This document shows, one piece after another, positions 2,891-55,421 of a stretch of DNA of 64,000 bases. Each line of letters opens with the position of its first letter. Within the stretch, counting starts at the first letter, position 1. Made by a program: the position numbers and the translations under genes. The notes beneath the pieces are model-generated. The model made no database searches. It was given only the letters and a program-made list of their open reading frames with translations, and was not told the DNA's origin. Origin of the DNA: Limonium bicolor (lineage: Eukaryota > Streptophyta > Magnoliopsida > Caryophyllales > Plumbaginaceae); NCBI GenBank assembly GCA_023374045.1, contig CM041778.1, positions 361,248,831-361,312,830 on the forward strand. The letters are read 5' to 3'.

Positions 2891-3039
2891 CTGTAAGTAT
2901 ACTTAGGCACCTTCCGCACCGAGTCCATAACCTAATTGTGTTCACAAGCTTCATGAGTATTGATGGTATAACAAGAGTCGTAACGATTTATATGAACAAC
3001 ACTGTTATTTTATTCATAACCATCCTGTTTACGACAGTT

Positions 3040-3964: not shown

Positions 3965-4272
3965 ATCTACCCCCCTTAAAAAGAACTTTGTCCTCAAAGT
4001 TCACATATGTGCTAACCATTCACGGTACTCAATCCCTTAATCTTAACACCCCATCTTATATTCACATTCACGCATCTCAAGACTAAAGGTCAATCTCAAA
4101 TACAATACATAAGTATTATACATAACTCAAACTTAACACCAAAGTGTAGCAACATACACCAATTCACATCTTAAAACCAAACAACTGACAATAGGTTTGT
4201 TCCTTAACTCAAAAGCGAGGAAGCTCTACCCCCCTTAAAAGGGGTACGCCCCGTAACCCAATGCAGACGGTT
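3965..4272 (-). other. 3' non-coding region of Gypsy A2 with two polypurine tracts
   Basis: Read on the minus strand, AAGGGGGGTAGAT (3965-3977) abuts the 3' LTR and is the plus-strand primer. A second exact copy of its 12-base core lies upstream at 4225-4236, just below the pol stop. The A3 copy has the same pair (40210-40221 and 40472-40483). No coding potential is seen between them. Confidence 0.75.
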
Positions 4273-7241
4273 CTAGTAAGTAAACAAAGAAGGGTACTTC
4301 GCCCTCATCTTATCCTCTAATTCCCACGTGTCCTCTTCGACATCCTGGTTAGACCAGAGAACCTTCACCAGTTGCACTGACTTGTGGCGAGTGTCCCTAG
4401 TCCTTACTGTCCAAGATTCTCTGAGGAGTCTCCACGGATATCATATTTGGTTCTAAAGTAACCTCTCAGCTTCCAACACATGGAGGGCTGGTGAATGTAT
4501 TTCTTTAGCTGTGAAACATGAGAAAATCATGCACTTTACCCAGTTCAGCAGGTAAATTCAACCTGTAAGCAACCGGGCCCACCCGCTCCGTAATCTCAAG
4601 GGACAACCAACAAACTCGGGCTAATTGCCCTTCTGCCCAAACCTGAATACACCCTTCATCGGTGAAACTTGTAGAAATACCTTGGTCGCCCACTGCGAAC
4701 TCCAGTCCGTCGTCGAACATCAGCATACGATTCTGCCTATCTTGAGCAGCTTTCATGTTCTCCCTCATTTGCTGACTTCAGCCTTAACTGCTCTAAGTAC
4801 TCTGGTCCTTAATGACCGTCTCACTCGATCATCCCAGCAGAGCGGTTTTGTACGACATGGTCTACCGTACAACGATTGAAAAGGTGCCATCTTGATCGAA
4901 GCTTGATAGCTGTTGTTGTATGAAAACTCGATCAGATGTAATTTGTCAATCCAACTGCCCTGGAAGTCTAAGGCACATGCTCCCAGCATGTCCTCGAGTG
5001 TCTGAATAGTACGCTCAGTCTGACCATCAGTCTGAGGATGGAACGCGGTACTTAGTTTGAGTTCTGTACCCAACGCTTCTCTGGTAGCTCTCCAGTACCT
5101 CGAAAGGAATCTGGTATCTCTATCTGACACTATGGTCTTTGGTATCCCGTGATGTCTCATGATTTCTTTCTCGAACAACTCAGCTAATTTGGTCACCTTC
5201 CAAGTATCCTTCATCGGTATGAATCGGGCTACTTTGGTAAGGCGATCCACCACCACCCATATCATGTTGAGACCTCCCCTAGCAGGTGGGAGTCCAACCA
5301 CAAAGTCCATGGAGATATCATGGAACTTCCACTCCGGAACTGGCATCGACTGTACCATTCCGCCCGGTCGTCGGTGCTCGAATTTTACCTTCTGGCATGT
5401 GAGACACCTCAAGACGAACTCGGTAACATCTGTCTTCATCCCCGACCACCAGAAGTATCTCTTCATGTCTTTATACATTTTAGAGGCTCCCGGATGGATG
5501 GAAACTGAAGAACAGTGTGATTCTCTAAGTATACGGTCTTTCAGATCCGTGTTGCCCCGTGGTATGCATAACCGGCCCTTAAGTCTGATCAGATCATCAT
5601 CATGAAGTCTGAAGTCGTATTTCTGACTCTCAAAGGTACCATCTGTCAGCTTCTGTCTGACCTCTCTCATGTACTCATCTGTCCTCTGAGCCTCTCGCAC
5701 CTCATCAACCAAGCTGGAGAAAGAAACTAGCGAATGGAGTGAGTGTGCTCGACGGCTCAGGGCGTCTGCTACAACATTGGCCTTCCCCTCTTTGTATTGG
5801 AGGTCAATGTCATAGTCTTTCAGAAACTCTAACCATCTCCTCTATCGAAGATTCAACTCCTTCTGAGTGAATATGTATCTCAAACTCTTATGATCGGTGT
5901 AGATCGTCACACTAACCCCGTATAAGTAGTGGCGCCATATCTTCAAAGCGAAGACTACAGCTCCCAGCTCCAAATCATGTGTGGGGTAGTTCTCCTCATG
6001 TTTCTTTAACTGGCATGAGGCATATGCCACCACCTTGCCATGTTGCATGAGCACGCCACCCAGCCCTCTGCCGGATGCATCACAATAAACCTCAAAGCCC
6101 TCTGTACCGTCTGGAATGGTCAGAACCGGTGCAGTGGTCAGTGAGTCCTTCAGGCTCTGAAATGATTTCTCACAGTCAATTGTCCACAAAAACGGGGCAT
6201 CCTTCTTCATCAGACTGGTCATCGGTTTTGCGACCTTGCTGAAATCCCTAACAAACCTCCGGTAGTAACCTGCCAGACCGAGAAAGCTCCGGATGTCGGT
6301 AACAGTCTTCGGCCTTGGCCAAGTACGTACGGCATCAATCTTTGCTGGATCAACTGAGATCCCAGCATCTGAGATGACATGACCTAGGAAAGAGACCTGG
6401 TCAAGCCAAAACTCACACTTGGAGAACTTATCATATAGCTGGTTCTCCCTCAATATTTCCAATACTCTCCTCAGATGTTCCTCATGTTCAATCTTAGATT
6501 TCGAGTATATCAAAATGTCATCAATAAACACCACAACCGACTTGTCCAGCTGCTCCCGGATCAAGCGGTTCATCAGATCCATAAACTTCGCCGGTGCGTT
6601 CGACAAGCCGAACGGCATCACTGTAAACTCGTAGTGGCCGTATCGTGTCCGGAATGCCGTCTTCTCAATGTCTCCCTCCTTAATGGCTATCTGATGATAC
6701 CCCGATCTGAGATCAATCTTGGAGAACACAGATGCTCCCTTCAACTGATCGAACAAATCGTCAATGCGGGGTAGTGGGTACTTATTCTTCACTGTCACTG
6801 CATTCATCTCTCTATAGTCGATGCAGAGGCGGAGACTACCATCCTTCTTCTTCATGAAGAGGACTGACGCTCCCCATGGTGACACACTTGGTCTTATAAA
6901 TCCCTTATCTAACAAATCTTTCAATTGTTCCTTTAACTCAGTCATTTCTGCCGGAGCCATACGGTATGGTGCCTTGGCTATCGGTCCGGTACCAGGTAGC
7001 AGCTCGATGGTGAACTCTACCTCCCGAGTGGGTGGCATGCTGGGCAGTTCCCGTGGAAATAAGTCGGGGAACTCCGACACTACCGGTAAGTCGGGGTCGA
7101 ACTCAGGGTCTCTCTCTATGTCTTGTACATAGCAGAGGTACACTTCTTCCTTTCTCCTCAATTCCTTATACATTGCCATGGCGGTGATGATTTTAGTCGA
7201 AGGCTCTCTGGGCCTCTGGCAGTATGATATTGTTACCCCAG
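4273..7241 (-). pseudogene. Gypsy A2 pol, RT-RNase H-integrase-chromodomain part
   Basis: This is the pol part of A2 left of the D insertion. The 5842-7179 frame holds RT ([21 protein letters not shown], and catalytic FIDDIL for the YxDD box) and RNase H (YCDASG, the TDHKSL block). The 4765-5712 frame holds the integrase HHCC zinc finger (CLTCQKV end) and the D,D,E core (MDFVVGLP, DRDTRF, LIEFSYNNS). The 4505-4768 frame continues into the GPVAYRLNLP block, and a degenerate chromodomain tail follows to about 4273. Frameshifts occur near 5840, 4770 and 4500. Its protease and gag parts lie 25.8 kb away at 33003-35797 because of the D insertion. Family placement as Tekay/Del is inferred from domain order, the iMet PBS and the C-terminal chromodomain-like block. 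Confidence 0.9.
7237..7241. repeat. Target-site duplication CCCAG, left copy (element D)
   Basis: CCCAG directly precedes the D terminus TGTGAGCC. It recurs at 32998-33002 after the last D base. The uninterrupted site exists in A3 near 43483-43487 (TTACCCCAGACGG), which confirms a 5-bp duplication. Confidence 0.93.
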
Positions 7242-31212: not shown

Positions 31213-31215
31213 GTC

Positions 31216-32997: not shown

Positions 32998-33002
32998 CCC
33001 AG
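32998..33002. repeat. Target-site duplication CCCAG, right copy (element D)
   Basis: Follows LTR 4 exactly and rejoins the interrupted Gypsy A2 sequence (ACGGACTCC). Confidence 0.93.
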
Positions 33003-33384
33003 ACGGACTCCTGAGCAGCAATCTATGCTCGGCGCAGAGGATACGTCCCTTGTGCCGCTCCAACCAATTCATCCCGAAGATAACATCAAATCCTAGCTCA
33101 CTGAACTCAATAAAACTGACTGGAAAGTCTTCTCCCTTAATTCCGACAGTGGCTCCTCGGTAGTAACGAGTGCAACGAACCTTCTCCTTAGACGGGAGCG
33201 TAACCGTGAAGTCGGGTAGCTCATCAGTGTCTAGCCCCAACATGCTCGCGAATGATGCCGAGACAAAGGTATGCGAGGCCCCTGAGTCGAAGAGAACTGA
33301 TGCCTCGATCCCATTAATCGGAAAGGTGCCGGTGAGGATAGTACCGCTAGCGTCGGCCTGTGCCTCTGTAAGTATACTGAGCGC
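33003..33384 (-). pseudogene. Gypsy A2 pol, protease part
   Basis: Aspartic protease of A2, cut from its RT by element D. The frame from 33243 down reads MLGLDTDELPDF and continues through FGMNWLERHKGRI. Upstream bases encode the DSGASHTF active-site block. Near 33382 about 37 nt present in A3 are missing between two GAAG direct repeats. The loss removes the AATTAG/G sequence that I propose as the pol splice acceptor. A2 could thus make Gag-AlkB more easily than Gag-Pol, but the D insertion abolishes pol anyway. Confidence 0.85.
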
Positions 33385-33524: not shown

Positions 33525-34264
33525 CTAATATTGTCTAAAGGTTAGGTTTAATCTCCCAGGTCTCATATGCGTCGCATTGATTACTGTTGACGGTGCTGTA
33601 TTCAACTTGATTCTCTTAATCCCATGGTATAACATCCTTGATTCTCCTCCCATAATTAATACATCTCCAGATTTAAGTATCAACTTATTCGCACGGTCCG
33701 CACGCTTCTGCTCGCCGTATAAAAACTCTACATCATCCCCAATGGACCAAGACACTACGGGTAGCCCTCTTTCGAGAGACTCCGCTGTCTCGTCCTTATC
33801 CTGGTGTAGTCCAAGTCGCCCGTCCTTCTCGTAGAAGTTCACAATGCAAATGTCTGCTTGTATGTCTGGAATCGGTTCAGCTTCCAACTGCTGAGCGATT
33901 TCCACGACTTGTGTAATAACTGGATGGAACTCTTCGGGTATTCCCGGTGGTGAGACTCCATCTTGCATCCTCGTGGTTTGGTAATTCTTGGCATACGGAT
34001 TCCAATCCTTGCCTAAGCTCATCATTTTTAATCTCATCTTTGCTCCCCCTGGGTACTCCGGTGTGTAAAAACCTCCCGGTCCCATTCCTAGTTGATTGCA
34101 TCTTCTGATGATGGCTATTTGTGCTTCGGGTGTCAGGTATTCCCTTAATAAAATCATTCCTGGGCGGATAACCTGACATTGTTCGGTTGGAAAGTCTATA
34201 GTTTCGATGTCGGTGTGCTCCGGGTTAGGTGTAAATGGTATTGGATAGCAGATGTTGAAGCTTC
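33525..34264 (-). CDS. AlkB-like 2OG-Fe(II) dioxygenase exon of Gypsy A2 gag (exon 4)
   Basis: The exon is 740 nt, open throughout and ends at its own TAG at 33525. The 3' splice site CACTTTAG/G precedes 34264, and the two leading bases complete a codon from exon 3. After a ~35-residue lead (SFNICYPIPF...) comes the AlkB fold: MILLREYLTPEAQ, the GPGGFYTPEY substrate-lid region, the HQDKD iron ligands (HxD), SWSIGDD, LILKSGDVLIMGG, the distal iron His in MLYHGIKRI, and the 2-oxoglutarate clamp RLNLTFR (RxNxTxR). The family oxidatively removes N-alkyl groups from DNA or RNA, and the lid wording resembles plant ALKBH1-type proteins. A role on element RNA or cDNA is inference. The exon is in frame with the zinc knuckles and present in A3 and B, so it is a retroelement domain and not a host gene. 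Confidence 0.88.
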
Positions 34265-34396
34265 CTAAAGTGGTAGTAGGTTACATCTTACTTAAGTTCT
34301 AATCTCATCTTATTCTTACTTAACTCATTTATTCACCAAACATGCATGATAATGCGGTAAGCAGGTAGTTTTATTACTAAATGGTTATAGCGGTAC

Positions 34397-34738
34397 CTAG
34401 CCTCGATGAGGGTTCAGGCTCATCGTCCCGGACCACCATGTGTAGTGTGGGTCCTGACTTCTGGGTCACCCTTGGGTTCTTGTCTGCAGCCTGCTGCACC
34501 TTCCTTTGACCGTCAGATCCAGCTCCCTGATCGGTCTTGCCCTTGCCCCTGGTATCGGGCCTATAGGCTCTGCTAGCAGGGTTCCGGTAACACTCATACG
34601 CTCGGTGTCCGTACACCCCACAGAAGTTGCACTCCACCTTATTCCCCTTGCAATCGAGCCCGGGGTGGTCCTTGTGACACCACCTACAGATGTAGCGTCG
34701 CTGGTAGCCATTACCGGCTCCCTTCTCAGTCTCAGATC
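34397..34738 (-). CDS. Gypsy A2 gag exon 3: nucleocapsid with two CCHC zinc knuckles
   Basis: 342 nt with phase 1 at both ends. The acceptor is GATCAG/G at 34739-34738 and the donor CTAG/GTACCG at 34397-34396. It encodes two CX2CX4HX4C knuckles, CRWCHKDHPGLDC and CNFCGVYGHRAYEC, then a basic tail and an acidic end (RDDEPEPSSR). Knuckles of this kind bind element RNA during packaging. If the donor is not used, translation reads a few codons further and stops. B has an exon of exactly the same length, 342 nt, and the same phases. The intron call rests on consensus sites and frame continuity, not on RNA data. Confidence 0.8.
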
Positions 34739-34817
34739 CTGATCATTTATAATATCAATACTCATTTCTCAAATGGTTACTAATTGTTTCTTAACTCATT
34801 CAATACCAATCCCTTAC

Positions 34818-35069
34818 CCTTTGGCGCCCTAGAGCGCAAAGGTGTAGCTGCATAGGCATACGTCAACTTCAATGGCTCTTCCGGAGCCTTCTCCTTTTCC
34901 TCCTTCCCTTCGGGTTCTGATTTTTCTGGGCCTGAGGCTGGTACTTCTGTTTCTTGTACCCTCCTTGCCCTTGACTCTCCGAGCTCTTACCAGCACTCTT
35001 CCTCTTGGCATTCTCCTCGTCCCTCAGCTGGACGGTTATCTCAACCTTAGCAGCGGCGTGATAGCACTC
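34818..35069 (-). pseudogene. Gypsy A2 gag exon 2 (1-nt deletion)
   Basis: The acceptor GAAGCAG/G precedes 35069 and the donor CCAAAGG/GTAAGG follows 34818. It encodes ECYHAAAKVEITVQLRDEE and a Lys/Gln-rich linker ending LRSRAPKG. A2 is 252 nt where A3 is 253 and B 259 (both 1 mod 3). The missing base is in a CCC-TTT run near 34909 and shifts the frame. The introns either side are about 86 and 79 nt. Confidence 0.78.
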
Positions 35070-35155
35070 CTGCTTCCCACAGTATTAGTCACTCTCATTT
35101 TTCCATAATCCAAATCTTACTCATTACTTACTCAAATCTCAATCATTCTTATTAC

Positions 35156-35797
35156 CTGCAAGGTAGTGTAACTCGTCAGCCCCATGCCGTAGCGGAGTCG
35201 ATGGCTAAGCCCGCCATAGAAGCGGTCCACCAGGATCTGGTCTGAATACCCAAGACCTGACAGAAGACGGAGCAAGGCGGTGAACTCTGAGTAATACTCG
35301 TCCACCGTCATCTTGTCTGTCTGCTTAAGCGCATCCAACTGCAAGCGCTTCTTCGTCTGGACATGGGCGGGGTAGTACTTTGCTCGTAGCAAGGCGGTGT
35401 ACTGCTCCCAGCCGAACTCTGGATTGGCCACGTGCTCGGCCCTCACCAGCTTCCACCAATCGCCTGCCGCCCCCTTCAGGTAGAAAGCAGCTAGACGCAC
35501 CTTGATCCCAGCAGGGACATCAAGGGTCTCGAAGGCGGTCTCCAGCTCGGAGATGTACGCCTCAAGCTTGGCGGGATCGGTCTCCCCCTTGAAGTGTGCG
35601 GGTCGAAGATCTGCAAGACTCTTCACCCAATTTGGTTCCCTGGGTTGTGGCGGTGGAGGTGGTGCACCCACACCAGGCTGATAGCCCATGTGCCCTAATG
35701 CGGCAGCCACGATCTCTACGATCGTCTGCCTCTCAAGTATTCCTGAAGCATCATCACCTTGGCCGCGACCTCGGCTTCCTCTAGGACGTCCTGCCAT
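35156..35797 (-). CDS. Gypsy A2 gag exon 1: capsid (retrotransposon Gag domain)
   Basis: 214 codons from ATG 35797 (MAGRPRGSRGRG) to the donor TTGCAG/GTAATAAG after 35156. I chose this ATG because B begins at the equivalent one (MSGRPRG) with an in-frame stop just upstream. An alternative in-frame ATG is at 35809. The retrotransposon Gag core is clear: AAFYLKGAAGDWW, W..YTALLRAKYYP, KMTVDEYYSEFTALLRLL. An RGR-rich N-terminus and a poly-Pro stretch (about residues 45-52) precede it. It forms the particle shell in the family. The leader ends TTCAG directly before the ATG, which could be a further splice acceptor. Confidence 0.85.
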
Positions 35798-36015
35798 CTG
35801 AACAAGCATAACTCACATTAGATTCGTATCCACCACTGTTTCGGTTAACGAATTTATAACGTCCGTAGACGGTAAAGACGATCCACACTTATTAGTGGTC
35901 ATCTGACTCTACTCACTCTAACCTCTCACACCCTTAACCCATCACTTATTCCTTAACTTATATCCTAACTCGGTGGTTACTCATGTCCGGTATTTCTTGA
36001 TCAGAGCGTAACTAC

Positions 36016-36027
36016 GCTCTGATACCA
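36016..36027 (-). other. Primer-binding site of Gypsy A2 (tRNA-iMet) inside a hairpin
   Basis: TGGTATCAGAGC in element sense, five bases from the LTR, is the 12-base complement of the plant initiator tRNA-Met 3' end. The following bases form an 11-bp perfect stem with it (ATCAGAGCGTA paired with TACGCTCTGAT, 2-nt loop). The 35798-36015 leader otherwise holds no gene. Confidence 0.9.
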
Positions 36028-36376
36028 CTTTTTGTAACACCCCATCCAAAGCCAATCGTGGTTATCGCAAAACTGAACACTTAAACGAATTCGTCGCAGC
36101 GGAAATAACAAACACCTGGACCTTGCCACGGTCTGATCGTTAGAATATACCGGCCTTAACATTTACAACACTTATCCAAAACATATAATCAACCCAAACA
36201 TCACCATCCATAATACCAACCACCAACCGAGTACAAGTAACTAAGTCATAATCACAACCTTACATCAGTTTAAATATAAACAGACGGGTGCACAAGCGCA
36301 ACCCGTACTCAAAATAAACATCCCAACCTAAGTCTAACCGCTCCTACTCTCGTGGTGCGTCCTCATGGGCCTCTTA

Positions 36377-36421
36377 CCTGCAAGTGTAAAAACCCCCAAA
36401 GGGGGTCAGCACGAATGCTGG
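36377..36421 (-). promoter_or_regulatory. Conserved double hairpin plus T-rich/CAGG motif in LTR-A
   Basis: In element sense: CCAGCAT-loop-GCTG, then CCCCC-TTT-GGGGG, then TTTTTACACTTGCAGG. The same order of two hairpins, T run and CAGG occurs in LTR-A copy 2, LTR-B and LTR-C with changed loops. It could be an R-region structure, a 3'-end signal or a splice acceptor; the sequence alone does not decide. Confidence 0.55.
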
Positions 36422-37515
36422 TACACCCTCTCATGGCCCCCAAGCTAACGGGGCTACGACGACTAATTGTCGATAGCATGGAAATTGATTACATACACAA
36501 GCATGATATGAAGTGCAATAGCAATAATCCACAGATGAGCATGCATAGTTCACAAACAATGAACGACTCAAGCGTTCCCTTATCAAGTGGGTTAGTAACC
36601 GCCTCCTTAGTCCTCATTTCCTTAATCTCAGTTCCTTACCTTACCTTAATCTTAATCTCAACTTAATCTCAGTATACAAACCGTTCCTGGAAGGGAATGG
36701 TTGTAGCTTAATTCGAACCTGGGATTTAGGTGATCCCACCGCACCATCTTAATGCCACCTACTCTGGACGGGAGTCCAGCGTAGCTGAGCCGGCAACCGG
36801 CCCTAGGCTACAAGTCCGAAGACAAGTCCTTAAGTGGAGGGCGGATCTGATTCAGATACCGTCCCCCTTTCCTGATCATGCATGACCGGAGTTCGGTCCC
36901 AGGTTTCCTCACTCAAGTTCCAGTTAGTAGAAATCTTAATCACCATGTGCTAGCTAAGCCTTAACAGGCATTAGCCAACAACCACCAAAACTTAACTCTT
37001 ATTCTTAACTCAGTAAGTACTAAACTTGGTTAGTAACAATCTCAAGTCTCGCGGGTCAGTGTAAGGAAAACACATAAACAACGAGACAAATATAACCGGT
37101 TGCATTCTTTATCTTGTTTTAGTCATAGCATTTAAACAGATAGCACACAAGCCGAGGGACACCTCGTTAGCAAGCAGGTCACAAGAAAGATTGTATCGTT
37201 CACCGTCGATCGTCGTTTGTTTTATCTTCTCCAGGGTCCCAATTCACAAACCTAAAACATTGATTCATTTTTAGGCCATTAGTTATTTGCACCTCACTTA
37301 ACTCACTTAATCGCTAAAGATTCCCGATGAATATCCCTTTAAGTCCTTACCACTTACCCTTTTAAACTTAATCTTTTTAAACATTAAAGTTCTTACTTAA
37401 CTTAACTTAATCCCTTAGGTCCTTAGGGTCCTAAACATTACTACCCTACCAATGGCATACCTTATTACCAATTATCCTCTTTAGAATTTAAAATTTCTTT
37501 TTTTTTTATTTTAGG

Positions 37516-37918
37516 CCCGACCGAACTTACGACCGACCTTACCCAAGGTCGGTCCATTCTAGAACATATTACCGCTTGAAAATTCTACCCCGACCGGCCT
37601 TGCAAGTCCGGTCCCCAAGGTCGGTCCATTCCCGACAGTTTTCTCTGAGGGAAATTTAAGCTCGACCGAACTTGCCAAGTCCGGTCCTATGTTCGGTCGA
37701 TTCCAGAGACTTATTACCGTACAAAATTCTAGGCATGACCGACCTTCCAAGTCCGGTCCCAAGGTCGGTCCGTTCCAGAGACTTAATTTCTTCACAAAAT
37801 ACAAGCCCGACCGAACTTGTAAGTCCGGTCCCCAGTTCGGTCGGTTCCAGAAACTTTCTTCGGCAGTGTAAACTGAGCTCGACCGACCTTGTAGGTCCGG
37901 TCCCTAAGGTCGGTCGGC
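37516..37918 (-). repeat. Six-unit ~72-bp hairpin ladder in LTR-A
   Basis: Left arms begin at about 37531, 37592, 37664, 37737, 37809 and 37881. Each unit has GACCGACCTT or GACCGAACTT, a GTCCGG-containing middle and the matching right arm AAGGTCGGTC or AGTTCGGTC. Units 1, 4 and 6 use the ACC/GGT pair and units 3 and 5 use AAC/GTT, so both arms change together. Linkers between units are AT-rich and only loosely repeated. Confidence 0.85.
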
Positions 37919-40207
37919 TCCAGAACCTTGTTTCTAAATTCTCTTTTAACTTCAAACTTCTCCTCATATATCCTAATATGTTATAACCTCATTTGGGCAC
38001 CTCAAATACACCTTAAGCCAACCACTAAACACTTTAATCACTCACCAACATCCACTTTGATCATTATGCATTTCTCCTTGTAATCATGCCAACACTTGTA
38101 ACATTTTCCACTAGGTTTCTAGGTGCCCCACCACTATAACATCATCTCCCAAGCATCTTTCACCATCTAAAACTCTTTTATGCATTTACTTAAAGTTCCT
38201 TCACAAGCTTAAGCTTCCATCCATCAACACCTTATTTCCTTTCTTGTTGTTTACCAACATTTGCCTAAGTCCTAAATACTCAATTACATTCTCTTGATTC
38301 TTAAATCCTTCATAGTAATGCCTAAGTCATTATAACTCATTAAAACACTTTATCTCACCCCCTTTTTCATTAAGACAACCTCTAAAACTTCCTAGTACTT
38401 CCTTAGTCATTAAATCCCCTTAGAACATCTTAAACACTTAAGTTCTCCTTTAAATTTTGCCATGGGTTCTCTAGCATATAGTACATCCTAACACTTAGTT
38501 TTTCTCCATCAATCAACCAATATCACTCAAATTCTCATCACAACACCTTAACACACAATCTACACCAAAACTACACCACATCATCATATAGTGTATAAAC
38601 TTAAATGCTTGGCACTAAGGCCCTTAAATGACAATAATCTTAACCACTGAATTTCCACATATATTTGCCTTCAACCTGCGAATACACACAACAAGGCTCC
38701 CATTGAAATAAAATGCTTCTTGCAATTCACCTTGATATTCTTAAACTATCTCTTTTCTCATTAGCTCCTTAGTCACAAGTTTACAATCATGATCATTGTT
38801 TCTCCTAGGTCATAAATAGCCCTTTTCTAATGTAAACTCTACACTAAACTCATCACATAACTAAATCCCATTCCCTTAAACAATAAAACACCTTAAGGTA
38901 AGTAATTTACCTTGTTCTTTTACAAGCTTTAAAAGCTTTCTTCCTTAGGTTTTTCCTTCCTCAATCTCGGTCACCAAGATATATCTCCTTGCCAATGTTC
39001 TACCCAATATCCAATGACTCCAATGAGTACTAGATAATACATTAACCCTAAGGAACAAACCCTAGGTTAAAAATGTGCTTTAAGGTATTAAGGTGATTGT
39101 TTTACCTTGGTTTCTCAAGACAAGCTTGGATACGAAGCAAGAAGGACCTCCTCAATCCTTTGAAGAGTAGAAAACAAGCTAGAACAAGGCATTAAAATGA
39201 AGCCTCATGAGCATACATTTTCGGTCAAAAAGAAAGGTGATGGAAACCTAGATTTTCTTACACTTTCTTTACCTTAAGAGAATGGAGAAGCCAATGGAGT
39301 CTCCAAACTTGAATTTCCTCCTCTAATGGTGGTTTGGCTTGGCACCAAATCAAAGCTCTTGAAGTTTTGAAAAGATAGAAAGAGAGAGCTTGAGCTAACT
39401 AAGAGGAATATGTAATTTGTTTTGGTTTTGGAGCTAAGATGAGTAAGTAGTGTGCAAGAGTAGGTGGAGCTAGCATGGGGTTTCTCTTCACGTTAATGGA
39501 GAAGGGAGAGAGCTTGAGAAAATCATGGGAACAAGAGAGAATGAAGAGGTGAGGAGAGAGGTGAGTTAAAATGAGATATTTATGTTGTAAAGTAAATAGT
39601 ACTTTTGCTTTATAGTTATTTATTTGCTTAATGACTAATAAAGGTGGTGACTCACCTTATGAAAAACCGGCCCCCATTAAGTAACAAGGGTACTTAAGTC
39701 TTTTTGACCAAATATCTCACTTATATTGACTTATGTTATAAACTAGCTTAATTAATTTACTATTCACAAAACAAGGCACATTGTTGTGAAATTTTTGATT
39801 TCCCATTGATATAGACTTCCAAATGTGATACTATATAGTACACATGTTAATTAAAGAGTAATGACGGACATTTAGCCATTCAAAACTCATTTACAAGACA
39901 ATTTTTCAAAAATGTGCTTTAAGACTCCTTAAAGCACATTTTGTGTTTTAACTTGTTTTCAAGCTTGGTTTTCTTTGGTAATTGATTTAAAATGACCATT
40001 AGGATATTACTAAGGTCTTAGAACAATATTTGGGTACTCACCCAAGTCTCTCCAAGCTTAGAGCACGTTTTTGCTTAAACTGCTCTTTTGGTGTTTCCTT
40101 ATGTTTTCTTTGATTAGGAATGTTTCTTAATGTTCCTAAGGCATTATTTAGCCTCCTTATATCTTAGCTTATCATTTAAACACCATATCTAAGTTTGGGG
40201 TATTTCT

Positions 40208-40518: not shown

Positions 40519-43500
40519 CTAGTCAGTAAACAAAGAAGGGTACTTCGCCCTCATCTTATCCTCTAATTCCCACGTGGCCTCTTCGACATCCTGGTTAGAC
40601 CAGAGAACCTGCACCAGTCGCACTAACTTGTGGCGAGTGTCCCTAGTCTTACTGTCCAAGATTGTCTGAGGAGTATCCACGGATCTCATATTTGGTTCTA
40701 AAGTCAACCTCTTAGGTTCCAACACATGGGAGGGGTGGTGCATGTATTTCTTTAGCTGTGGAACATGAGAAACATCATGCACTTTACCAAGTTCAGCAGG
40801 TAAATTCAACCTGTAAGCAACCGGGCCCACCCGCTCCGTAATCTCATAGGGACCAACCAACTTCGGGCTTAATTTGCCCTTCTGCCCAAACCTGAATACA
40901 CCCTTCATCGGTGAAACTCGCAGAAATACCTGGTCACCCACTGTGAACTCCAGGTCCCATCGTCGAACATCAGCATACGACTTCTGCCTATCTTGAGCAG
41001 CTTTCATGTTCTCCCTGATTTGCTGAACTTCAGCCTTAACTTGCTCTAAGTACTCTGGTCCTATAATGACCGTCTCACTCGACTCATCCCAGCAGAGCGG
41101 TGTACGACATGGTCTACCGTACAACGCTTGAAAAGCTGCCATCTTGATCGAAGCGTGATAGCTGTTGTTGTATGAAAACTCGATCAGATGCAATTTGTCA
41201 ATCCAGCTGCCCTGGAAGTCTAAGGCACATGCTCTCAGCATGTCCTCGAGTGTCTGAATAGTACGCTCAGTCTGACCATCTGTCTGAGGATGGAACGCGG
41301 TACTCAGTTTGAGTTCTGTACCCAACGCTTCTCTGGTAGCTCTCCAGTACCTTGAAAGGAATCTGGTATCTCTATCTGACACTATGGTCTTTGGTATCCC
41401 GTGATGTCTCATGATTTCTTTCTCGAACAACTCAGCTAATTTGGTCACCTTCCAAGTATCCTTCATCGGTATGAATCGGGCTACTTTGGTAAGGCGATCC
41501 ACCACCACCCATATCATGTTGAGACCTCCCCTAGTAGGTGGGAGTCCAACCACAAAGTCCATGGAGATATCATGGAACTTCCACTCCGGAACTGGCATCG
41601 ACTGTACCATTCCCCCGGTCGTCGGTGCTCGAATTTACCTTCTGGCATGTGAGACACCTCAAGACGAACTCGGTAACATCTGTCTTCAACCCCGACCACC
41701 AGAAGTATCTCTTCATGTCTTTATACATTTTAGAGGCTCCCGGATGGATGGAAACTGAAGAACAGTGTGATTCTCTAAGTATACGGTCTTTCAGATCCGT
41801 GTTGCCCCGTGGTATGCATAACCGGCCCTTAAGTCTGATCAGATCATCATCATGAAGTCTGAAGTCGTATTTCTGACTCTCAAAGGTACCATCTGTCAGC
41901 TTCTGTCTGACCTCTCTCATGTACTCATCTGTCCTCTGAGCCTCTCGCACCTCATCAACCAAGCTGGAGAAAGAAACTAGCGAATGGAGTGAGTGTGCTT
42001 GACGGCTCAGGGCGTCTGCTACAACATTGGCCTTCCCCCCTTTGTATTGGAGGTCAATGTCATAGTCTTTCAGAAACTCTAACCATCTCCTCTGTCGAAG
42101 ATTCAACTCCTTCTGAGTGAATATGTATCTCAAACTCTTATGATCGGTGTAGATCGTCACACTAACCCCGTATAAGTAGTGGCGCCATATCTTCAAAGCG
42201 AAGACTACAGCTCCCAGCTCCAAATCATGTGTGGGGTAGTTCTCCTCATGTTTCTTCAACTGGCGTGAGGCATATGCCACCACCTTGCCATGTTGCATGA
42301 GCACGCAACCCAGCCCTCTGCCGGATGCATCACAATAAACCTCAAAGCCCTCTGTACCGTCTGGAATGGTCAGAACCGGTGCAGTGGTCAGTGAGTCCTT
42401 CAGGCTCTGAAATGATTTCTCATAGTCAATCGTCCACAAAAACGGTGCATCCTTCTTCATCAGAATGGTCATTGGTTTCGCGACCTTGCTGAAATCCCTA
42501 ACAAACCTCCGGTAGTAACCTGCCAGACCGAGAAAGCTCCGGATGTCGGTAACAGTCTTCGACCTTGGCCAAGTACGTACGGCATCAATCTTTGCTGGAT
42601 CCACTGAGATCCCAGCATCTGAGATGACATGACCTAGGAAAGAGACCTGGTCAAGCCAAAACTCACACTTGGAGAACTTAGCATATAGCTGGTTCTCCCT
42701 CAATATTTCCAATACTCTCCTCAGATGTTCCTCATGTTCAATCTTAGATTTCGAGTATATCAAAATGTCATCAATAAACACCACAACCGACTTGTCCAGC
42801 TGCTCCCGGAACAAGCGGTTCATCAGATCCATAAACTTCGCCGGTGCGTTCGACAAGCCGAACGGCATCACTGTAAACTCGTAGTGGCCGTATCGTGTCC
42901 GGAATGCCGTCTTCTCAATGTCTCCCTCCTTAATGGCTATCTGATGATACCCCGATCTGAGATCAATCTTATAGAACACTGATGCTCCCTTCAACTGATC
43001 GAACAATCGTCAATGCGGGGTAGTGGGTACTTATTCTTCACTGTCACTGCATTCAGCTCTCTGTAGTCGATGCATAGGCGGAGACTACCATCCTTCTTCT
43101 TCACGAAGAGGACTGGCGCTCCCCATGGTGACACACTTGGTCTTATAAATCCCTTATCTAACAAATCTTTCAATTGTTCCTTTAACTCAGTCATTTCTGC
43201 CGGAGCCATACGGTATGGTGCCTTGGCTATCGGTCCGGTACCAGGTAGCAGCTCGATGGTGAACTCTACCTCCGAGTGGGTGGCATGCCGGGCAGTTCCC
43301 GTGGAATAAGTCGGGGAACTCCGACACTACCGGTAAGTCGGGGTCGAACTCAGGGTCTCTCTCTATGTCCTGTACATAGCAGAGGTACACTTCTTCCTTT
43401 CTCCTCAATTCCTTATACATTGCCATGGCGGTGATGATCTTAGTCGAAGGCTCTCTGGGCCTCTGGCGGTATGATATTGTTACCCCAGACGGACTCTGAG

Positions 43501-43890
43501 CAGCAATCTATGCTCGGCGCAGAGGATACGTCCCTTGTGCCGCTCCAACCAGTTCATCCCGAAGATAACATCAAATCCTAGCTCACTGAACTCAATAAAC
43601 TGACTGGAAAGTCTTCTCCCTTAATTCTGACAGTGGCTCCTCGGTAGTAACGAGTGCAACGAACCTTCTCCTTAGACGGGAGCGTAACCGTGAAGTCGGG
43701 TAGCTCATCAGCGTCTAGCCCCAACCTGCTCGCGAATGATGCCGAGACAAAGGTATGCGAGGCCCCTGAGTCGAAGAGAACTGATGCCTCGATCCCATTA
43801 ATCGGAAAGGTGCCGGTGAGGATAGTACCGCTAGAGTCGGCCTGTGCCTCTGTAAGTATACTTAGCGCTCCTTCCGCACGAGTCCATAAC
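40519..43890 (-). pseudogene. Gypsy A3 pol: protease-RT-RNase H-integrase-chromodomain
   Basis: The proposed pol exon begins after AATTAG at 43891 and runs to TAG at 40519. Protease: LFDSGASHTF (43578-43913 frame). [25 protein letters not shown] and catalytic FIDDIL. RNase H: YCDASG and TDHKSL. Integrase: HHCC finger ending CLTCQKV, then D-D-E (MDFVVGLP, DRDTRF, LIEFSYNNS). The C-terminus, VQVLWSNQDVEEATWELED, is a chromodomain-like end typical of Tekay/Del chromoviruses. Frames 41570-43006 and 40519-41610 are long and open. Small deletions near 43600, 43490, 43290, 43005 and 41615 break the polyprotein. It would otherwise copy and integrate the element. Confidence 0.92.
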
Positions 43891-44045: not shown

Positions 44046-44779
44046 CTAATATTGTCTAAAGGTTAGGTTTAATCTCCCAGGTCTCATATGCGTCGCATTG
44101 ATTACTGCTGACGGTGCTGTATTCAACTTGATTCTCTTAATCCCATGGTATAACATCCTTGATTCTCCTCCCATAATTAATACATCTCCAGATTTAAGTA
44201 TCAACTTATTCGCACGGTCCGCACTTCTGCTCGCCGTATAAAAACTCTGCATCATCCCCAATGGACCAAGACACTACGGGTATCCCTCTTTCGAGAGACT
44301 CCGCTGTCTCGTCCTTATCTTGGTGTAGTCCAAGTCGCCCATCCTTCTCGTAGAAGTTCACAATGCAAATGTCTGCTTGTATGTCTGGAATCGGTTCAGC
44401 TTCCAACTGCTGAGCGATTTCCACGACTTGTGTAATAACTGGATGGAACTCTTCGGGTATTCCCGGTGGTGAGACTCCATCTTGCATCCTCGTGGTTTGG
44501 TAATTCTTGGCATACGGATTCCAATCCTTGCCTAAGCTCATCATTTTTAATCTCATTTGCTCCCCCTGGGTACTCCGGTGTGTAAAAACCTCCCGGTCCC
44601 ATTCCTAGTTGATTGCATCTTCTGATGATGGCTATTTGTGCTTCGGGTGTCAGGTATCCCCTTAATAAAATCATACCTGGGCGGATAACCTGACATTTTG
44701 GTTGGAAAGTCTATAGTTTCGATGTCGGTGTGCTCCGGGTTAGGTGTAAATGGTATTGGATAGCAGATGTTGAAGCTTC
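44046..44779 (-). pseudogene. Gypsy A3 AlkB exon, three 2-nt deletions
   Basis: Homologous to 33525-34264 but 734 nt instead of 740. Two-base deletions near 44696, 44557 and 44224 split it into three frames (44396-44674, 44206-44556, 44046-44261). HQDKD, MLYHGIKRI and RLNLTFR are all still encoded in pieces, so the loss is recent. The acceptor TTTAG/G at 44780-44779 and the terminal TAG are kept. Confidence 0.88.
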
Positions 44780-45330: not shown

Positions 45331-45583
45331 CCTTTGGCGCCCTAGAGCGCAGGGGTGTAGCTGCATAGGCATACGTCAACTTCAATGGCTCTTCCGGAGC
45401 CTCCTCCTTTTCCTCCTTCCCTTTCGGGTTCTGATTTTTCTGGGCCTGAGGCTGGTACTTCTGTTTCTGGTACCCTCCTTGCCCTTGACTCTCCGAGCTC
45501 TTACCAGCACTCTTCCTCTTGGCATACTCCTCGTCCCTCAGCTGGGCGGTTATCTCAACCTTAGCAGCGGCGTGATAGCACTC
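45331..45583 (-). CDS. Gypsy A3 gag exon 2 (open, 253 nt)
   Basis: Open over all 253 nt, giving the phase change (0 to 1) expected from B (259 nt). It encodes ECYHAAAKVEITAQL-type sequence, a Lys/Glu-rich middle and LKLTYAYAATPLRSRAPKG. The acceptor GAAGCAG/G and donor CAAAGG/GTAAGG are intact. The exon is intact, but the host element is defective on both sides. Confidence 0.75.
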
Positions 45584-45669
45584 CTGCTTCCCACAGTATT
45601 AGTCACTCTCATTTTTCCATAATCCAAATCTTACTCATTACTTACTCAAATCTCAATCATTCTTATTAA

Positions 45670-46311
45670 CTGCAAGGTAGTGTAACTCGTCGGCCCCATG
45701 CCGTAGCGGAGTCGATGGCTAAGCCCGCCATAGAAGCGGTCCACCAGGATCTGGTATGAATACCCAAGACCTGGCAGAAGACGGAGCAAGGCGGTGAACT
45801 CTGAGTAATACTCGTCCACCGTCATCTTGTCTGTCTGCTTAAGCGCATCCAACTGCAAGCGCTTCTTCGTCTGGACATGGGCGGGGTAGTACTTTGCTCG
45901 TAGCAAGGCGGTGTACTGCTCCCAGCCGAACTCTGGATTGGCCACGTGCTCGGCCCTCACCAGCTTCCACCAATCGCCTGCCGCCCCCTTCAGGTAGAAA
46001 GCAGCTAGACGCACCTTGATCCTAGCAGGGACATCAAGGGTCTCGAAGGCGGTCTCCAGCTCGGAGATGTACGCCTCAAGCTTGGTGGGATCGGTCTCCC
46101 CCTTGAAGTGTGTGGGTCGAAGATCTGCAAGACTCTTCACCCAATTTGGTTCCCTGGGTTGTGGCGGTGGAGGTGGTGCACCCACACCAGGCTGATAGCC
46201 CATGTGCCCTAATGCGGCAGCCACGATCTCTACGATCGTCTGCCCCTCAGGTATTCCTGAAGCATCATCACCTTGGCCGCGACCTCGGCTTCCTCTAGGA
46301 CGTCCTGCCAT
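45670..46311 (-). CDS. Gypsy A3 gag exon 1: capsid domain
   Basis: 214 codons from MAGRPRG (ATG 46311; alternative ATG 46323) with the same Gag core as A2 (AAFYLKGAAGDWW, KMTVDEYYSEF). The splice donor after 45670 reads GCAG/TTAATAAG where A2 has GCAG/GTAATAAG, so the invariant GT is lost. Unspliced translation stops ten codons later. About 220 nt of leader separates it from the PBS. Confidence 0.85.
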
Positions 46312-46529
46312 CTGAACAAGCATAACTCACATTAGATTCGTATCCACCACTGTTTCGGTTAACGAATTTATAACGTCCCTAGACGGTAAAGACGATCCAC
46401 ACTTATTAGTGGTCATCTGACTCTACTCACTCTAACCTCTCACACCCTTAACCCATCACTTATTCCTTAACTTATATCCTAACTCGGTGGTTACTCATGT
46501 CCGGTATTTCTTGATCAGAGCGTAACTAC

Positions 46530-50528: not shown

Positions 50529-50997
50529 TATAAACTAGCTTAATTAATTTACTATTCACAAAACAAGGCACATTGTTGTGAAATTTTTGATTTCCCATTG
50601 ATATAGACTTCCAAATGTGATACTATATAGTACACATGTTAATTAAAGAGTAATGACGGACATTTAGCCATTCAAAACTCATTTACAAGACAATTTTTCA
50701 AAAATGTGCTTTAAGACTCCTTAAAGCACATTTTGTGTTTTAACTTGTTTTCAAGCTTGGTTTTCTTTGGTAATTGATTTAAAATGACCATTAGGATATT
50801 ACTAAGGTCTTAGAACAATATTTGGGTACTCACCCAAGTCTCTCCAAGCTTAGAGCACGTTTTTGCTTAAACTGCTCTTTTGGTGTTTCCTTATGTTTTC
50901 TTTGATTAAGAATGTTTCTTAATGTTCCTAAGGCATTATTTAGCCTCCTTATATCTTTTTATCATTTAAACACCATATCTATGTTTGGGGTATTTCA

Positions 50998-52900
50998 GTG
51001 TGCTCGGCGACTCAATGCGTCAGCTACCACATTTGCTTTACCCTCTTTGTACTGTAAATTGATGTTGTAGTCGTTTAAGAACTCGACCCACCTTCTTTGT
51101 CTCATGTTCAACTCCTTCTGAGTGAACAAGTATTTTAAACTTTTGTGATCAGAATAAATTGTCACGCTTACCCCATACAAATAATGTCGTCATATCTTCA
51201 ATGCGAAGACAATGGCACCCAGTTCTAAATCTTGGGTAGGGTAGTTCTCTTCGTGCTTCTTCAGCTGTCGGGAGGCGTATACTACGACCTTCCCGTGTTG
51301 CAACAACACACAACCCATACCTCTGCCTGATGCGTCGCAATAGACCTCAAAACCATCTGGACCGTCTGGTATAGTCAGGACTGGTGCAGATGTCAGAGCA
51401 TCCTTGAGCCTCTAAAAAGAACTCTCGTAGTCATCTGTCCACTCGAATGGAGCATCCTTCTTCATCAAGGAAGTCATCGGCTTCGAGACACTGGAGAAGT
51501 CCTTCACAAACCTCCTATAATATCCTATCAGACCGAGGAAGCTTCGGATGTCGGTAACTGTCTTCGGCCTAGGCCAGGTGTGCACTACATCAATCTTTGC
51601 CGGATCAACATCGATCCCAGCCTCGGAAATCACATGACCAAGAAAGGATACTTGGTTCAACCAAAACTCACACTATGAAAATTTAGCATACAACTGATTC
51701 TTTCTTAATGTTTGTAACACATTTCTCAGGTGGCTTTCATGCTCACCTCTCAATTTCGAGTACACAAGAATATCGTCGATGAAGACTACCACTGACTTGT
51801 CCAACTGATCTTGGAACAAGTGGTTCATTAAGTCCATAAACTTCGCTGGTGCATTGGATAAACCAAACGGCATAACCGTAAACTCAAAATGTCCATATCT
51901 GGTTCGGAATGCGGTTTTCTCAATATCACTCTCACGGATGGCAATCTGATGGTATCCAGATCGTAAATCTATCTTGGAGAACACTGATTCTCCTCTCAAC
52001 TGATCAAATAAGTCGTCGATGCGTGGTAAAGGATAACAGTTCTTCACCGTGACAGCATTCAGCCCTCGATAGTCATTACACAGGCGGAGACTACCGTCCT
52101 TCTTCTTTACGAAGAGGACCGGCGCTCCCCATGGTGAAACACTCGGGTGGATAAATCCCTTGTCGAATAGGTCTCTCAGCTGCTCCTTGAGCTCTGTCAT
52201 CTTTGCTGGAGCCATACGATAGGGCGCCTTCACAATTGGTCCGGTGCCCGGAACCAAATCAATCTCAAACTCAACTTCCCGTGCTGGCGGTATGCCGGCA
52301 GTTCCTTAGGAAATACATCAGGAAACTCCGACACTAGCGGCACATCTGGGCTAAACTCTGGGTCTCTCTCTATGTCCTGGACATAGTAGAGGTATACATC
52401 ATTCCCTCATTGTAGTTCACGATACATAGCCATGGCGGTGATGATCTGAGTCGAAGGCTCCCTGGGCCTCTGGCGGTAAGATATAGTAACCCCAGACGGA
52501 CTCCGAAGAAGCAGACGATGCTCGGCACACAGGATTCTGCCCTTGTACCGCTCCAACCAGTTTATCCCGACAATCACATCAAAACCAAGTCCGTCGAACT
52601 CTATCAAGTCGATCGGAAACTCTTCATCTCGAATTTGTACAACAGCATCTCGGTGGTAGCGGGTACACCTGATCCGCTCTTTCGACGGGAGAGTGACTAG
52701 AAAGTCTGGCATCTCTTCACCGGCTAACCCCAGCCATCTCACAAAAGATTGCGAGATAAATGTATGTGAGGCTCCGGAGTCGAACAAGATCGATGCATCC
52801 ACGCCATTCACTGGAAAGGTACCGGTGAGGATTGTGCCGCTCTTGCCGGCTTCTGCCTCACTACAGACACTCAGTATACCTCCCATTCCGACTGCACAGC
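50998..52900 (-). pseudogene. Gypsy family B pol: protease, RT and partial RNase H
   Basis: Related to family A but clearly diverged. The proposed pol exon starts at 52900 after GAATTAG. The protease frame 52407-52886 has LFDSGASHTF. RT frame 51673-52257 has [21 protein letters not shown] and catalytic FIDDIL. 51412-51660 continues RT, and 50998-51180 holds the RNase H end (SDHKSL, ADALSR). Stops and frameshifts lie near 52300-52400, 51665 and 51410. It is cut at 50997/50998 by the Gypsy A LTR, so integrase and 3' LTR are absent from the window and should lie left of array A. Unlike A, no ATG precedes the protease near the acceptor. Confidence 0.9.
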
Positions 52901-53083: not shown

Positions 53084-53814
53084 TTAAAACTGCCTGAAGG
53101 TCAAATTCAAACGTCCGGGTTTCATGTGTGTGGCATTGATCACTGCCGATGGTGCGGTATTCAGTTCGATCTTCTTGATGCCATGATATAGCATCCTTGA
53201 CTGCCCACCCATGATTAACACATCTCCTGATTTCAACACTAGCTTCTTTGCGAGGTCAGCATGCTTCTGGGCGGCGTACACAAACATTGCGGTATCACCA
53301 ATGGACCAAGACACCACGGGTACTCCTTTACTTAGGGACTAATCCTTTTCTTGGAGTAACCCTAATCGTCCACCTTTCTGGCAGAAGTTCACAATAAATA
53401 AATCTGCTTTCACACTTGGTGTTGAATCTGATTCAATTTGCTGAGCAATTCCAACAGCGTGGTTAACGACCGCAAGGAACTCCTCAGGTATAATCGGTAC
53501 AGTTGCTCCATCTTCAGCTCGCACATCTTGATATGTCTTGGTGTAAGCATTCCAGTCCTTACCCATGCACATCATCTTCAATTTCATCTTCGATCCGCTC
53601 GGGTATACGGGTGTGTAGAAACCTCCGGGTGCCGCTCCCAGTTCGTCGCATCGTCGGATAATGTGGATTTGTGCTTCCGGTGTCAGGTATCCATTTAAGA
53701 GTATCATACCTGGTTAGATGACCTGCCATTGCTCCATTGGAAAGTCGGTGATGCTGATGGTGGTTTCTTCAGGGTTTGGTGTGGGTGGGATTGGATAGCA
53801 AATATTGAAGGTTC
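53084..53814 (-). pseudogene. Gypsy B AlkB exon, catalytic HxD lost
   Basis: Starts after ACTTAG/G at 53814 and ends at TAA 53084, where the last residues are RLNLTFRQF. It is 731 nt, so it differs from A2 by an in-frame 9-nt deletion and keeps frame across the exon, but has two internal stops: one just before the PGMILL block and one just after the HxD region. The iron motif reads LLQEKD where A2 reads LHQDKD, so both the His and the Asp ligands are replaced. The distal His (MLYHGIKKI) and the Arg clamp remain. The exon is recognisable, but this copy cannot encode an active enzyme. Confidence 0.88.
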
Positions 53815-53957: not shown

Positions 53958-54299
53958 CTGGTCTAGAAGAGGGCCCTGGCGCCTCAGACCGGTCCACCAC
54001 ATTCAGGGTGGCCTTGCCGGATCCCGACCCCTTCCCCTTCTTGGAATCGGTCTACCTCTGATCCGGGAATGGCTGATTAGCCGTCTTCGGGCCATCGGTG
54101 GTCACGGTGGTCTTACCCTTCCACTGCCCCTTAGGCCTGTAGTTTCTGTCATTCGGGTTCTAGAAGCATTCATAGTCACGATGCCCCATTTTTTTGCAGA
54201 ATCGGCACTGCACATCGTCTCCCTTGCAGTCCTTGCCGGGGTGGTCTCCCTTGCACCACTTGCAGTAGTAGTGGCGATCGGATCTAGAGCCCGTGCTAG
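53958..54299 (-). pseudogene. Gypsy B gag exon 3 (zinc-knuckle region)
   Basis: 342 nt, the same length as A2. Acceptor GTTAGCAG/C and donor CCAG/GTACCG keep phase 1 at both ends. It encodes CKWCKGDHPGKDC, and a second knuckle follows with a tail of Lys/Asp-rich sequence. At least two in-frame stops occur in the remainder (near 54162 and 54053), so it is decayed. Confidence 0.72.
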
Positions 54300-54382
54300 C
54301 TGCTAACACATCACACACTCAGTACATACTTCACAAAATAACAACACACACTAGAATTCGGTATTCAAATTTTATTAGTTAC

Positions 54383-54641
54383 CCTTGGGCGGGTAAGAGC
54401 GTAAGGGCTTGGCCGCATATGCATAGGTGAGCTGCAGAGGCTCCTCAGCAGTGGTGGACTAGGCTTGGCCTTTGCCACCCTGTTGCTGTCCTTTTTGGGA
54501 CTGGGGGTATGGCTTTTTCTTCTTTCCTCCCCCGTGCCCTTGCGTGCCTAGACCCTCGCTCGTGGCCTTGCGCTTAAGCGCATTCTCCTCGTCCCTTAGA
54601 CGGACGGTGATCTCAACAATAGCAGCGGCATGATAGCACTC
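54383..54641 (-). pseudogene. Gypsy B gag exon 2
   Basis: 259 nt (phase 0 to 1) after ATATAG/G, with donor AAGG/GTAACT. It encodes ECYHAAAIVEITVRLRDEE, a Lys/Gln/Gly-rich linker and LQLTYAYAAKPLRS, aligning with A exon 2 end to end. One in-frame TAG lies near 54461. Conserved boundaries and phases between diverged families support the intron model. Confidence 0.75.
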
Positions 54642-54736
54642 CTATATTTAGGGTGTTAGTTATGCCCCGCAAAACAAACTCACAATTACATTAACACACT
54701 GCACACACTTATTCACATCACACTGTAGTTCATTAC

Positions 54737-55421
54737 CTGCAAAGTAGTATATCCGCTTGGCCCCACACCGTAGCGTAGGCGGTAGCTCAATCCGTTGTAG
54801 AAACGGTTCACTAGAATCCGGTCTGATTAACCCAGATCCGGCAGCAGGTGGATAAGTTCGATGAAAGCGGAGTAGTACTCATCAACCGTCATCTTATCCC
54901 CTTGCCTCAAATTGTCGAGCTCTAGGCTTGGCCTCTTGCACATGAATCGGGTAGTACTTGGCTCGCAGCAGGGCCGTGTACTCCCTCCACTGGAAGGTAG
55001 GATCAGCAACTCTACCCTCCCTTACCAGTTTCCACCAACCCTGAGCCGATCCCTTCAAGTAGTATGCGGCAAGACGGACCTTGACCTCCTCGGGCACATT
55101 CAAGGTCTCGTAGGTGGTCTCCATCTCAGACATGTACGCCTCCAACTTACCAGGGTCGGTCTCCCCACTGAATGACGGGGGTCTCAAATCCGCCAACGCC
55201 TTGACCCAGTTAGTCTCGCACGGCTGTGGTTGCTGTTGTGGCCCTTGTTGACCCGCACCGCCTTGCTGCTGCTGCTGCATCGCAGCTACCAACTGTGGGA
55301 CCATCTGGGCTACGGCGGCCGCAACAGCGTCGGCCATGACTTACGCCGTAGGGTTCTCTCCCTGGTTCCCGGTATCACCAATGCCGCGCCTGCGGCCTCG
55401 ACCTCGTGGTCTACCTGACAT
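54737..55421 (-). pseudogene. Gypsy B gag exon 1: capsid domain
   Basis: Starts at ATG 55421 (MSGRPRG) with an in-frame TGA just upstream. The Gag core is visible (AAYYLKGSAQGWW, W.EYTALLRAKYYP, KMTVDEYYSAFIELIHLLPDLG), preceded by a Gln-rich run (CAG repeats near 55263-55280). A TAA near 55334 and a frameshift near 54930 disable it. The donor TTTGCAG/GTAATGAAC after 54737 is intact and equals that of A2. Confidence 0.85.

Follow-up and report, generated by a model that had tools for sequence, protein, structure and literature searches.

We consider it likely that a Ty3/gypsy retrotransposon family of Limonium bicolor carries a functional module captured from ALKBH1, and that this AlkB domain is used as an alternative last exon of gag, with splicing choosing between a Gag-AlkB protein and Gag-Pol. 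The analysis covers a stretch of 64,000 nucleotides (hereafter the window), which holds three copies of the element (A, A3 and B), and a search of the 2.92 Gb genome.

The AlkB exon and the elements that carry it

The AlkB exon of copy A occupies 33525..34264 on the minus strand, after the Gag zinc knuckles and before the protease. The first 2 of its 740 nt complete a split codon; 245 codons and a terminal TAG follow. The exon is predicted to encode an ALKBH1-type 2OG-Fe(II) dioxygenase. A preliminary description, made from the letters of the window alone, had placed the exon correctly to the base. For A, A3 and B alike, its coordinates run from the base after the AG acceptor to the last base of the stop codon. 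The plus-strand reading of the stretch in copy A is stop-ridden, and the reading frame lies on the minus strand. The translation, P0001, passes the profile test as AlkB, matching PF13532 over its whole length (profile 1-194 of 194; 3.6e-46; 158.3 bits against a cut-off of 31.2). The motifs reported earlier for this open exon are all present, namely HxD (H157, D159), the distal His (H217) and RxNxTxR (R241, N243, T245, R247; P0001 numbering). Nine metal- and 2OG-site residues were checked in 22 single-frame copies, a sample ranked by AlkB score that leaves out A3, whose AlkB is in pieces. All nine are kept in 20 copies, the exceptions being B, which lacks three, and L009, with N changed to S.

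An AlphaFold model of the element AlkB, built on a 42-row alignment, reached a pLDDT of 91.7, and Foldseek with this model returned rice OsALKBH1 first and E. coli AlkB next. The OsALKBH1 structures (PDB 5xeg and 5xoi) share 51-52% identity with the element AlkB (Foldseek 2.8e-29 for 5xoi). Among sequence matches to P0001, rice OsALKBH1 scored 255 bits, E. coli AlkB at most 90 and animal ALKBH1 entries 49-51; ALKBH5 was absent from the 21 matches at E<=1. Judged by match scores, the element AlkB is nearer to ALKBH1 than to other AlkB homologues.

The gag gene of copy A, as read from its sequence, appears to have four exons (capsid, a short second exon, zinc knuckles and AlkB), all on the minus strand, as are the other parts of the three copies given here. 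Exon 1 (35156..35809) encodes the capsid (Retrotrans_gag, Ty3_capsid) and is followed by intron 1 (35070..35155, 86 nt). Exon 2 (34818..35069) is one base shorter than its counterpart in A3, a frameshift, and precedes intron 2 (34739..34817, 79 nt). Exon 3 (34397..34738) holds two CCHC zinc knuckles, identified by eye, and ends in phase 1. Intron 3 (34265..34396, 132 nt) runs from GT to AG with an in-frame stop soon after the donor. AlkB had been described as in frame with the zinc knuckles, which holds after removal of this 132-nt intron (34396-34265); the intron itself contains stops. The protease part of copy A (32998..33367) is cut by a nested insertion and lacks the protease acceptor of the A3 and B type, and pol with part of the 3' LTR (3038..7241) lies beyond the insertion. 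A single LTR of about 4.2 kb (36031..40206, extent inferred, left end approximate) appears to be shared, as 5' LTR of A and 3' LTR of A3. Internal LTR repeats of about 72 nt occur at 37510-37938 (A) and 48024-48450 (A3).

The other two copies carry AlkB homologues at the same place, as had been noted, and both are broken, leaving copy A as the only one of the three with an open AlkB frame. In A3, the AlkB exon (44046..44779) is frameshifted; gag exons 1 and 2 with intron 1 span 45331..46323, with a TT instead of a GT donor. Protease, RT, RNase H and integrase of A3 extend over 40519..43890, starting from the protease acceptor (43891|43890), with the protease frameshifted. The end of the A3 integrase gives a weak chromodomain match (PF00385, 19.0 bits, E 0.0013), below the cut-off of 25.1. 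The Tekay label of the preliminary description, which would place the element among the chromoviruses, is tentative. In B, two internal stops interrupt the AlkB exon (53084..53814), and substitutions have removed two metal ligands (H157L, D159E) as well as the 2OG tyrosine (Y148C). Gag exons 1 to 3 of B with introns 1 and 2 span 53958..55421, and its protease and part of RT (50997..52900) run from the B protease acceptor to a cut at 50997, where A3 starts.

Copy A is itself interrupted by a nested element at 7242-32997, Tat/Athila-like by eye. The nested element is internally tandem (7242-25013 versus 15249-32997, 98.8%), and has a G-patch domain joined to an aspartic protease at 12471-13277. 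It also contains minisatellite-like arrays at 9155-9516 and 9957-10413, with steps of about 46 and 61 nt, copies of which lie near 17163, 17964, 25135 and 25936, so that each tandem unit has them.

The element family is very abundant, with thousands of copies. A degenerate pattern for the active-site stretch GLHQDKDE had 16,571 exact genomic matches, and the reversed control had none. In the PF13532 search of the genome, 38,325 sequences were candidates at first look, and the best 150 of them were scored. All 150 exceeded the cut-off and 149 were stop-free, in a list that its ranking by AlkB score biases towards intact copies. From this list, 20 regions were picked at intervals (L009-L028); all have zinc knuckles, AlkB and protease in constant order, with a displaced capsid match in L017 and no integrase found in L024. 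Because this list was ranked by AlkB score, a second sample was drawn by protease similarity, blind to AlkB: 20 stretches from 150 scored protease matches (51,638 first-look candidates). This sample is B-like, since the query was the B protease. AlkB lies directly upstream of the protease in all 20, which, with the pattern matches, rules out restriction of the domain to a single locus. Some AlkB elements are arranged head to tail, repeating every 10.0-10.6 kb (C1:497439466-497470353, C1:1430339-1461739 and window 32998-50996); these look like LTR-inside-LTR-inside arrays formed by recombination or concatemer integration.

Possible substrates of the enzyme

The primer binding site of copy A, TGGTATCAGAGC (36016..36027, minus strand), recurs at 46530-46541 and 55623-55634, one per element and three in the window against 0.01 expected. 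We take this site to be of the initiator tRNA-Met type. Human ALKBH1 demethylates m1A58 of initiator tRNA, and with a primer site of that presumed type, the primer itself becomes a third substrate candidate beside the RNA and the cDNA of the element. The reported target of rice ALKBH1 is 6mA in R-loops and in DNA that is single-stranded or unpaired (PMC10469495, available extract). Reverse transcription has a single-stranded DNA stage, which makes cDNA no less plausible than RNA as a substrate. In Arabidopsis, m6A is reported to keep ONSEN RNA in stress granules, from which ALKBH9B frees it (PMC12786077, available extract).

Through Gag, the enzyme would be brought to nucleic acid of the element itself (genomic RNA, primer or cDNA), inside virus-like particles or close to them. 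There it might remove m6A, m1A, m3C or 6mA, marks that could otherwise block translation or reverse transcription or send the RNA to sequestration. Tentatively, and as one possibility among several, the predicted Gag-AlkB protein may coat the genomic RNA, the initiator-tRNA primer or the first cDNA strand, be packaged along with it, and act as a repair enzyme that removes blocking methyl groups (for example m1A, m3C, m6A or 6mA) during reverse transcription, with the competing 3' splice sites coupling repair capacity to polymerase dose. The splice choice itself would set the ratio of Gag-AlkB to Gag-Pol. The enzyme might instead be aimed at host nucleic acids, acting like host ALKBH1 on 6mA or RNA marks at host genes rather than on the element genome. 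The habits of rice ALKBH1, which strips 6mA at R-loop regions and favours single-stranded or unpaired DNA, give this some footing (PMC10469495, available extract). We regard a host target as unlikely, though worth serious consideration, as fusion to a zinc-knuckle Gag would point to the element's own RNA or cDNA.

Splicing and constraint

Splice sites were surveyed in 23 copies (A, A3, B and L009-L028). A GT donor follows the zinc knuckles in all 17 copies whose end is readable, and AG|G precedes AlkB in exact register in 20 of the 23, the other three being one base off by extrapolation. The AlkB terminal stop is in place in 22 copies, with TAT in L015. A second acceptor, TAG|GYT, stands before the protease in 22 copies and is missing in A. 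By eye, the donor and both acceptors are in phase 1 in A-family, B-like and subfamily D copies, with the exception of the A3 protease acceptor, where the frame is one base off. Subfamily D has different splice-site bases in the same phase (G|GTAAGC; AATAG|GTTG; CCCCAG|GCCTC), and in subfamily C both acceptors are present and the zinc-knuckle exon is followed by GT, but indels disturb the frame. In the AlkB-blind sample, the AlkB acceptor is kept in 20 of 20 copies and the protease acceptor in 19, and the AlkB stop is in place in 14, changed in two and unreadable in four. Pol has no in-frame ATG before its DSG site in 18 of the 23 surveyed copies.

These sites suggest a primary RNA in which one donor, behind the zinc-knuckle exon, can be joined to either of two acceptors that compete for it and agree in phase. 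Use of the first acceptor would give Gag-AlkB, ending after the AlkB domain, and use of the second would skip AlkB and give Gag-Pol. Retention of intron 3 would yield plain Gag, which would stop a few codons past the donor. AlkB had been described as built into Gag, and one splice does join it to the zinc-knuckle exon. Rather than a fixed part of Gag, however, it is a terminal exon, closed by a stop codon of its own, that only one of the two splices includes; the other yields Gag-Pol without it.

Other routes to expression were tried and rejected. Unspliced read-through of intron 3 meets in-frame stops after the donor in A, A3, B and D (by eye). Readthrough of the AlkB stop, or a direct fusion of AlkB to the protease, was set aside because the relative frames vary among copies and the intervening stretch is near shuffled identity (A versus L020 and L022). 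In P0237, an RT match, zinc knuckle and protease stand 23 residues apart in a single ORF. This contrast rests on Pfam matches, as by blastp none of the 120 listed RT matches hit the element capsid, zinc knuckle or AlkB.

AlkB might alternatively be made as a separate protein, from an internal Met or from a transcript of its own, with the fusion to Gag incidental. A 210-codon frame begins at the Met of PGMILL and retains the match to profile positions 2-194, and in the orchid element AlkB is published as an ORF of its own (PMC9289625, available extract). We judge this improbable for the Limonium bicolor element, however, as constraint (0.15-0.28) extends to the 30-31 codons that precede this Met, the AlkB acceptor is kept throughout the AlkB-blind sample, and the exact junction of zinc-knuckle exon to AlkB exists at genomic places described below, in frame wherever it was fetched.

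If the RNA of an alternatively spliced element is reverse transcribed, some integrated copies are expected to be exactly intron-free, and such copies exist. All junction searches were controlled with the reversed pattern, which gave no match in any of the three. The exact junction of exons 1 and 2 has 284 genomic matches. Five of these copies were fetched, and all five have AlkB (in pieces in L054) and protease. Intron 2 is still present in L052, L053 and L056, as is the donor of intron 3. In the A-family copies L054 and L055, capsid and zinc knuckle lie 256 nt apart, compared with 420 in A, consistent with intron 2 being lost as well, and the distance from zinc knuckle to AlkB still includes an intron 3.

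The exact junction of the zinc-knuckle exon with AlkB has 10 matches, and the five copies fetched all read PSSRPG|TFNICYP, in frame at the join. After the join, AlkB continues as a single piece in L061 and as three pieces in L058, while L059 has a degraded AlkB and L060 its start only; a tblastn search for AlkB in L057 found none. L057, L059, L060 and L061 are without intron 2 (with three extra bases at the join in L061), and L061 is without intron 1 also. The exact junction of the zinc-knuckle exon with the protease has six matches. All six copies read PSSRPG|CALG in frame into protease and then RT, and no AlkB match was found in any of the six. L062 has lost introns 1 and 2, L063, L064 and L067 retain both, and the exact intron test gave no clear state for L065 and L066. 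Because both zinc-knuckle patterns fit B-like copies only, all junction counts are lower bounds; 10 and six are few against thousands of copies, and they do not give a ratio of acceptor use. Both splice products exist, seen as integrated DNA only.

The copies that join zinc knuckle to protease could descend from elements that always lacked AlkB, and skipping of AlkB by splicing would then not be demonstrated. There are just six such places. Against this ancestry, the six are joined exactly at the donor and the acceptor, and all four subfamilies (A, B-like, C and D) already carry AlkB. Further, their pieces are 82-95% identical to the B protease (53% in one gapped piece), most of them above the 71% of an A-family protease (L055), and the copies differ mutually by 2-17% (identity 83-98%). 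We consider such an ancestry very unlikely.

The alternative-exon reading presupposes that AlkB does something for the element, and the pattern of substitutions bears on this. Between subfamilies, AlkB dN/dS is 0.089-0.132, at dS near saturation, and neutral evolution is not seen. By one method, A-family against B-like copies gave dN/dS of 0.131 for capsid, 0.301 for the zinc-knuckle exon, 0.125 for AlkB, 0.145 for protease, 0.033 for RT and 0.032 for integrase, on 2-20 pairs per domain and at dS values of 1.5-2.9. The constraint on AlkB is thus like that on capsid and protease, and RT and integrase are more strongly constrained. Within the B-like group, AlkB dN/dS is 0.149-0.163 in the AlkB-ranked sample and 0.141 among the five intact AlkB-blind copies. 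Across all 20 AlkB-blind copies, differences at codon positions 1, 2 and 3 number 2612:1562:4687.

The AlkB exon of A is 72.6% identical to that of L022 and 71.9% to that of L020, over 740 aligned nt with zero indels. The stretch after AlkB is 42.0% identical between A and L022 (shuffled 46.7) and 51.3% between A and L020 (shuffled 49.3). Between A and B, it is somewhat higher (54.8 versus 46.9 shuffled), and intron 3 reaches 59-61% (shuffled 46-50), so the non-coding parts are not free of conservation. On these comparisons of sequence, the AlkB exon is retained under selection.

That the exon is an old host-gene fragment hitch-hiking in gag without function is extremely improbable and largely refuted by this constraint: although 15 of the 20 AlkB-blind copies did not pass as intact (L047 only because its ends did not align) and AlkB is dead in A3 and B, the between-subfamily dN/dS is like that of capsid and protease, A and two B-like copies align without indels, third-position differences are in excess in the AlkB-blind sample, and the nine active-site residues are intact in nearly all single-frame copies of the AlkB-ranked sample.

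Origin and relation to known systems

In a tree rooted, by choice, on host rows, 15 element AlkBs are separated from 48 host ALKBH1s by a single branch with support of 100/100. The element rows are window A, five B-like copies including B, two of subfamily C, three of subfamily D, and P0002-P0005, which come from ENA and Logan contigs and are likely to be of other species; an earlier version had 12 rows. Host rows were picked from listed matches. The deepest element branches are those of subfamily D, P0003 and P0005, in that order, with moderate support (94/83, 95/72), and this order suggests that the capture predates the four subfamilies (A, B-like, C and D). The proposal that AlkB was acquired before A and B split is thereby borne out, and C and D carry it too. 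As the element rows form one clade, the simplest reading is a single capture from the plant ALKBH1 lineage.

The AlkB of subfamily D (L049-L051) is nearer to host ALKBH1, with 56-57% identity to that of Aquilegia. A search of the same genome with Aquilegia ALKBH1 for the host donor gene gave three fetched matches that are all subfamily D, so neither the donor nor its exon borders were found in this search. In Artemisia annua, the host gene model P0122, which is ALKBH1-like, has part of its AlkB domain duplicated, and no Gag part was seen in it. A viral origin was rejected: RNA-virus and giant-virus AlkBs have the superfamily fold in common with the element domain, but among 50 listed viral fold matches identity is 11-19%, against 51-52% for rice ALKBH1, so that viruses are not a likely source. 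A search for close relatives in viral contigs returned none. The preliminary description had pointed to AlkB domains of plant RNA viruses; the nearest lineage is plant ALKBH1. Plant ALKBH1 proteins (OsALKBH1 and ALKBH1C/D-like host genes) have the same fold with the HxD...H and RxNxTxR motifs. They differ in carrying a host N-terminus before AlkB, where the element has its Gag exons, and the element AlkBs form a clade of their own.

AlkB is not without precedent in a plant Gypsy element. According to the available extract of PMC9289625, the 2-ODD Gypsy element of Phalaenopsis, Gypsy_Pa_2799, has a captured AlkB that is an m6A RNA demethylase in vitro. As described there, it belongs to Tat, sister to Ogre, and is 25.5 kb long, with Gag-Pol in one ORF; its AlkB is of the ALKBH5/9/10 branch and lies in a separate ORF2 of 565 aa. 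The same extract reports a survey of 121 genomes in which the AlkB Gypsy domain occurred in two Phalaenopsis species only. By these published features, the orchid and Limonium bicolor elements are alike in being abundant Ty3/gypsy elements with a captured AlkB whose cofactor residues are kept. The Limonium bicolor element differs in that its AlkB is of the ALKBH1 type, forms an exon between zinc knuckles and protease, and is joined to Gag by alternative splicing; it also has a weak chromodomain match and a primer binding site of presumed initiator-Met type. The differences in AlkB branch, kind of element and expression suggest a second, independent capture of AlkB by plant Gypsy elements.

In our literature searches, and within their limits, we recognised no AlkB in Tekay or another chromovirus and no splicing of Gag to AlkB. 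As far as those searches show, the capture of an ALKBH1-type domain by another kind of element, and its use as an alternative gag exon, are new. Such a second capture would argue that removal of methyl marks has been repeatedly useful to LTR elements, and would make the idea testable. Splicing is already known to set Gag against Pol output, through partial splicing in Ogre and shGAG splicing in EVADE and BARE (PMC6317226 and PMC12786077, available extracts). In those systems, as far as these extracts describe them, no enzyme is gained, whereas the alternative exon of the Limonium bicolor element carries a predicted dioxygenase. In a family of thousands of copies, integrated cDNA thus preserves a record of both products of a splice that would choose between a Gag-enzyme fusion and Gag-Pol.
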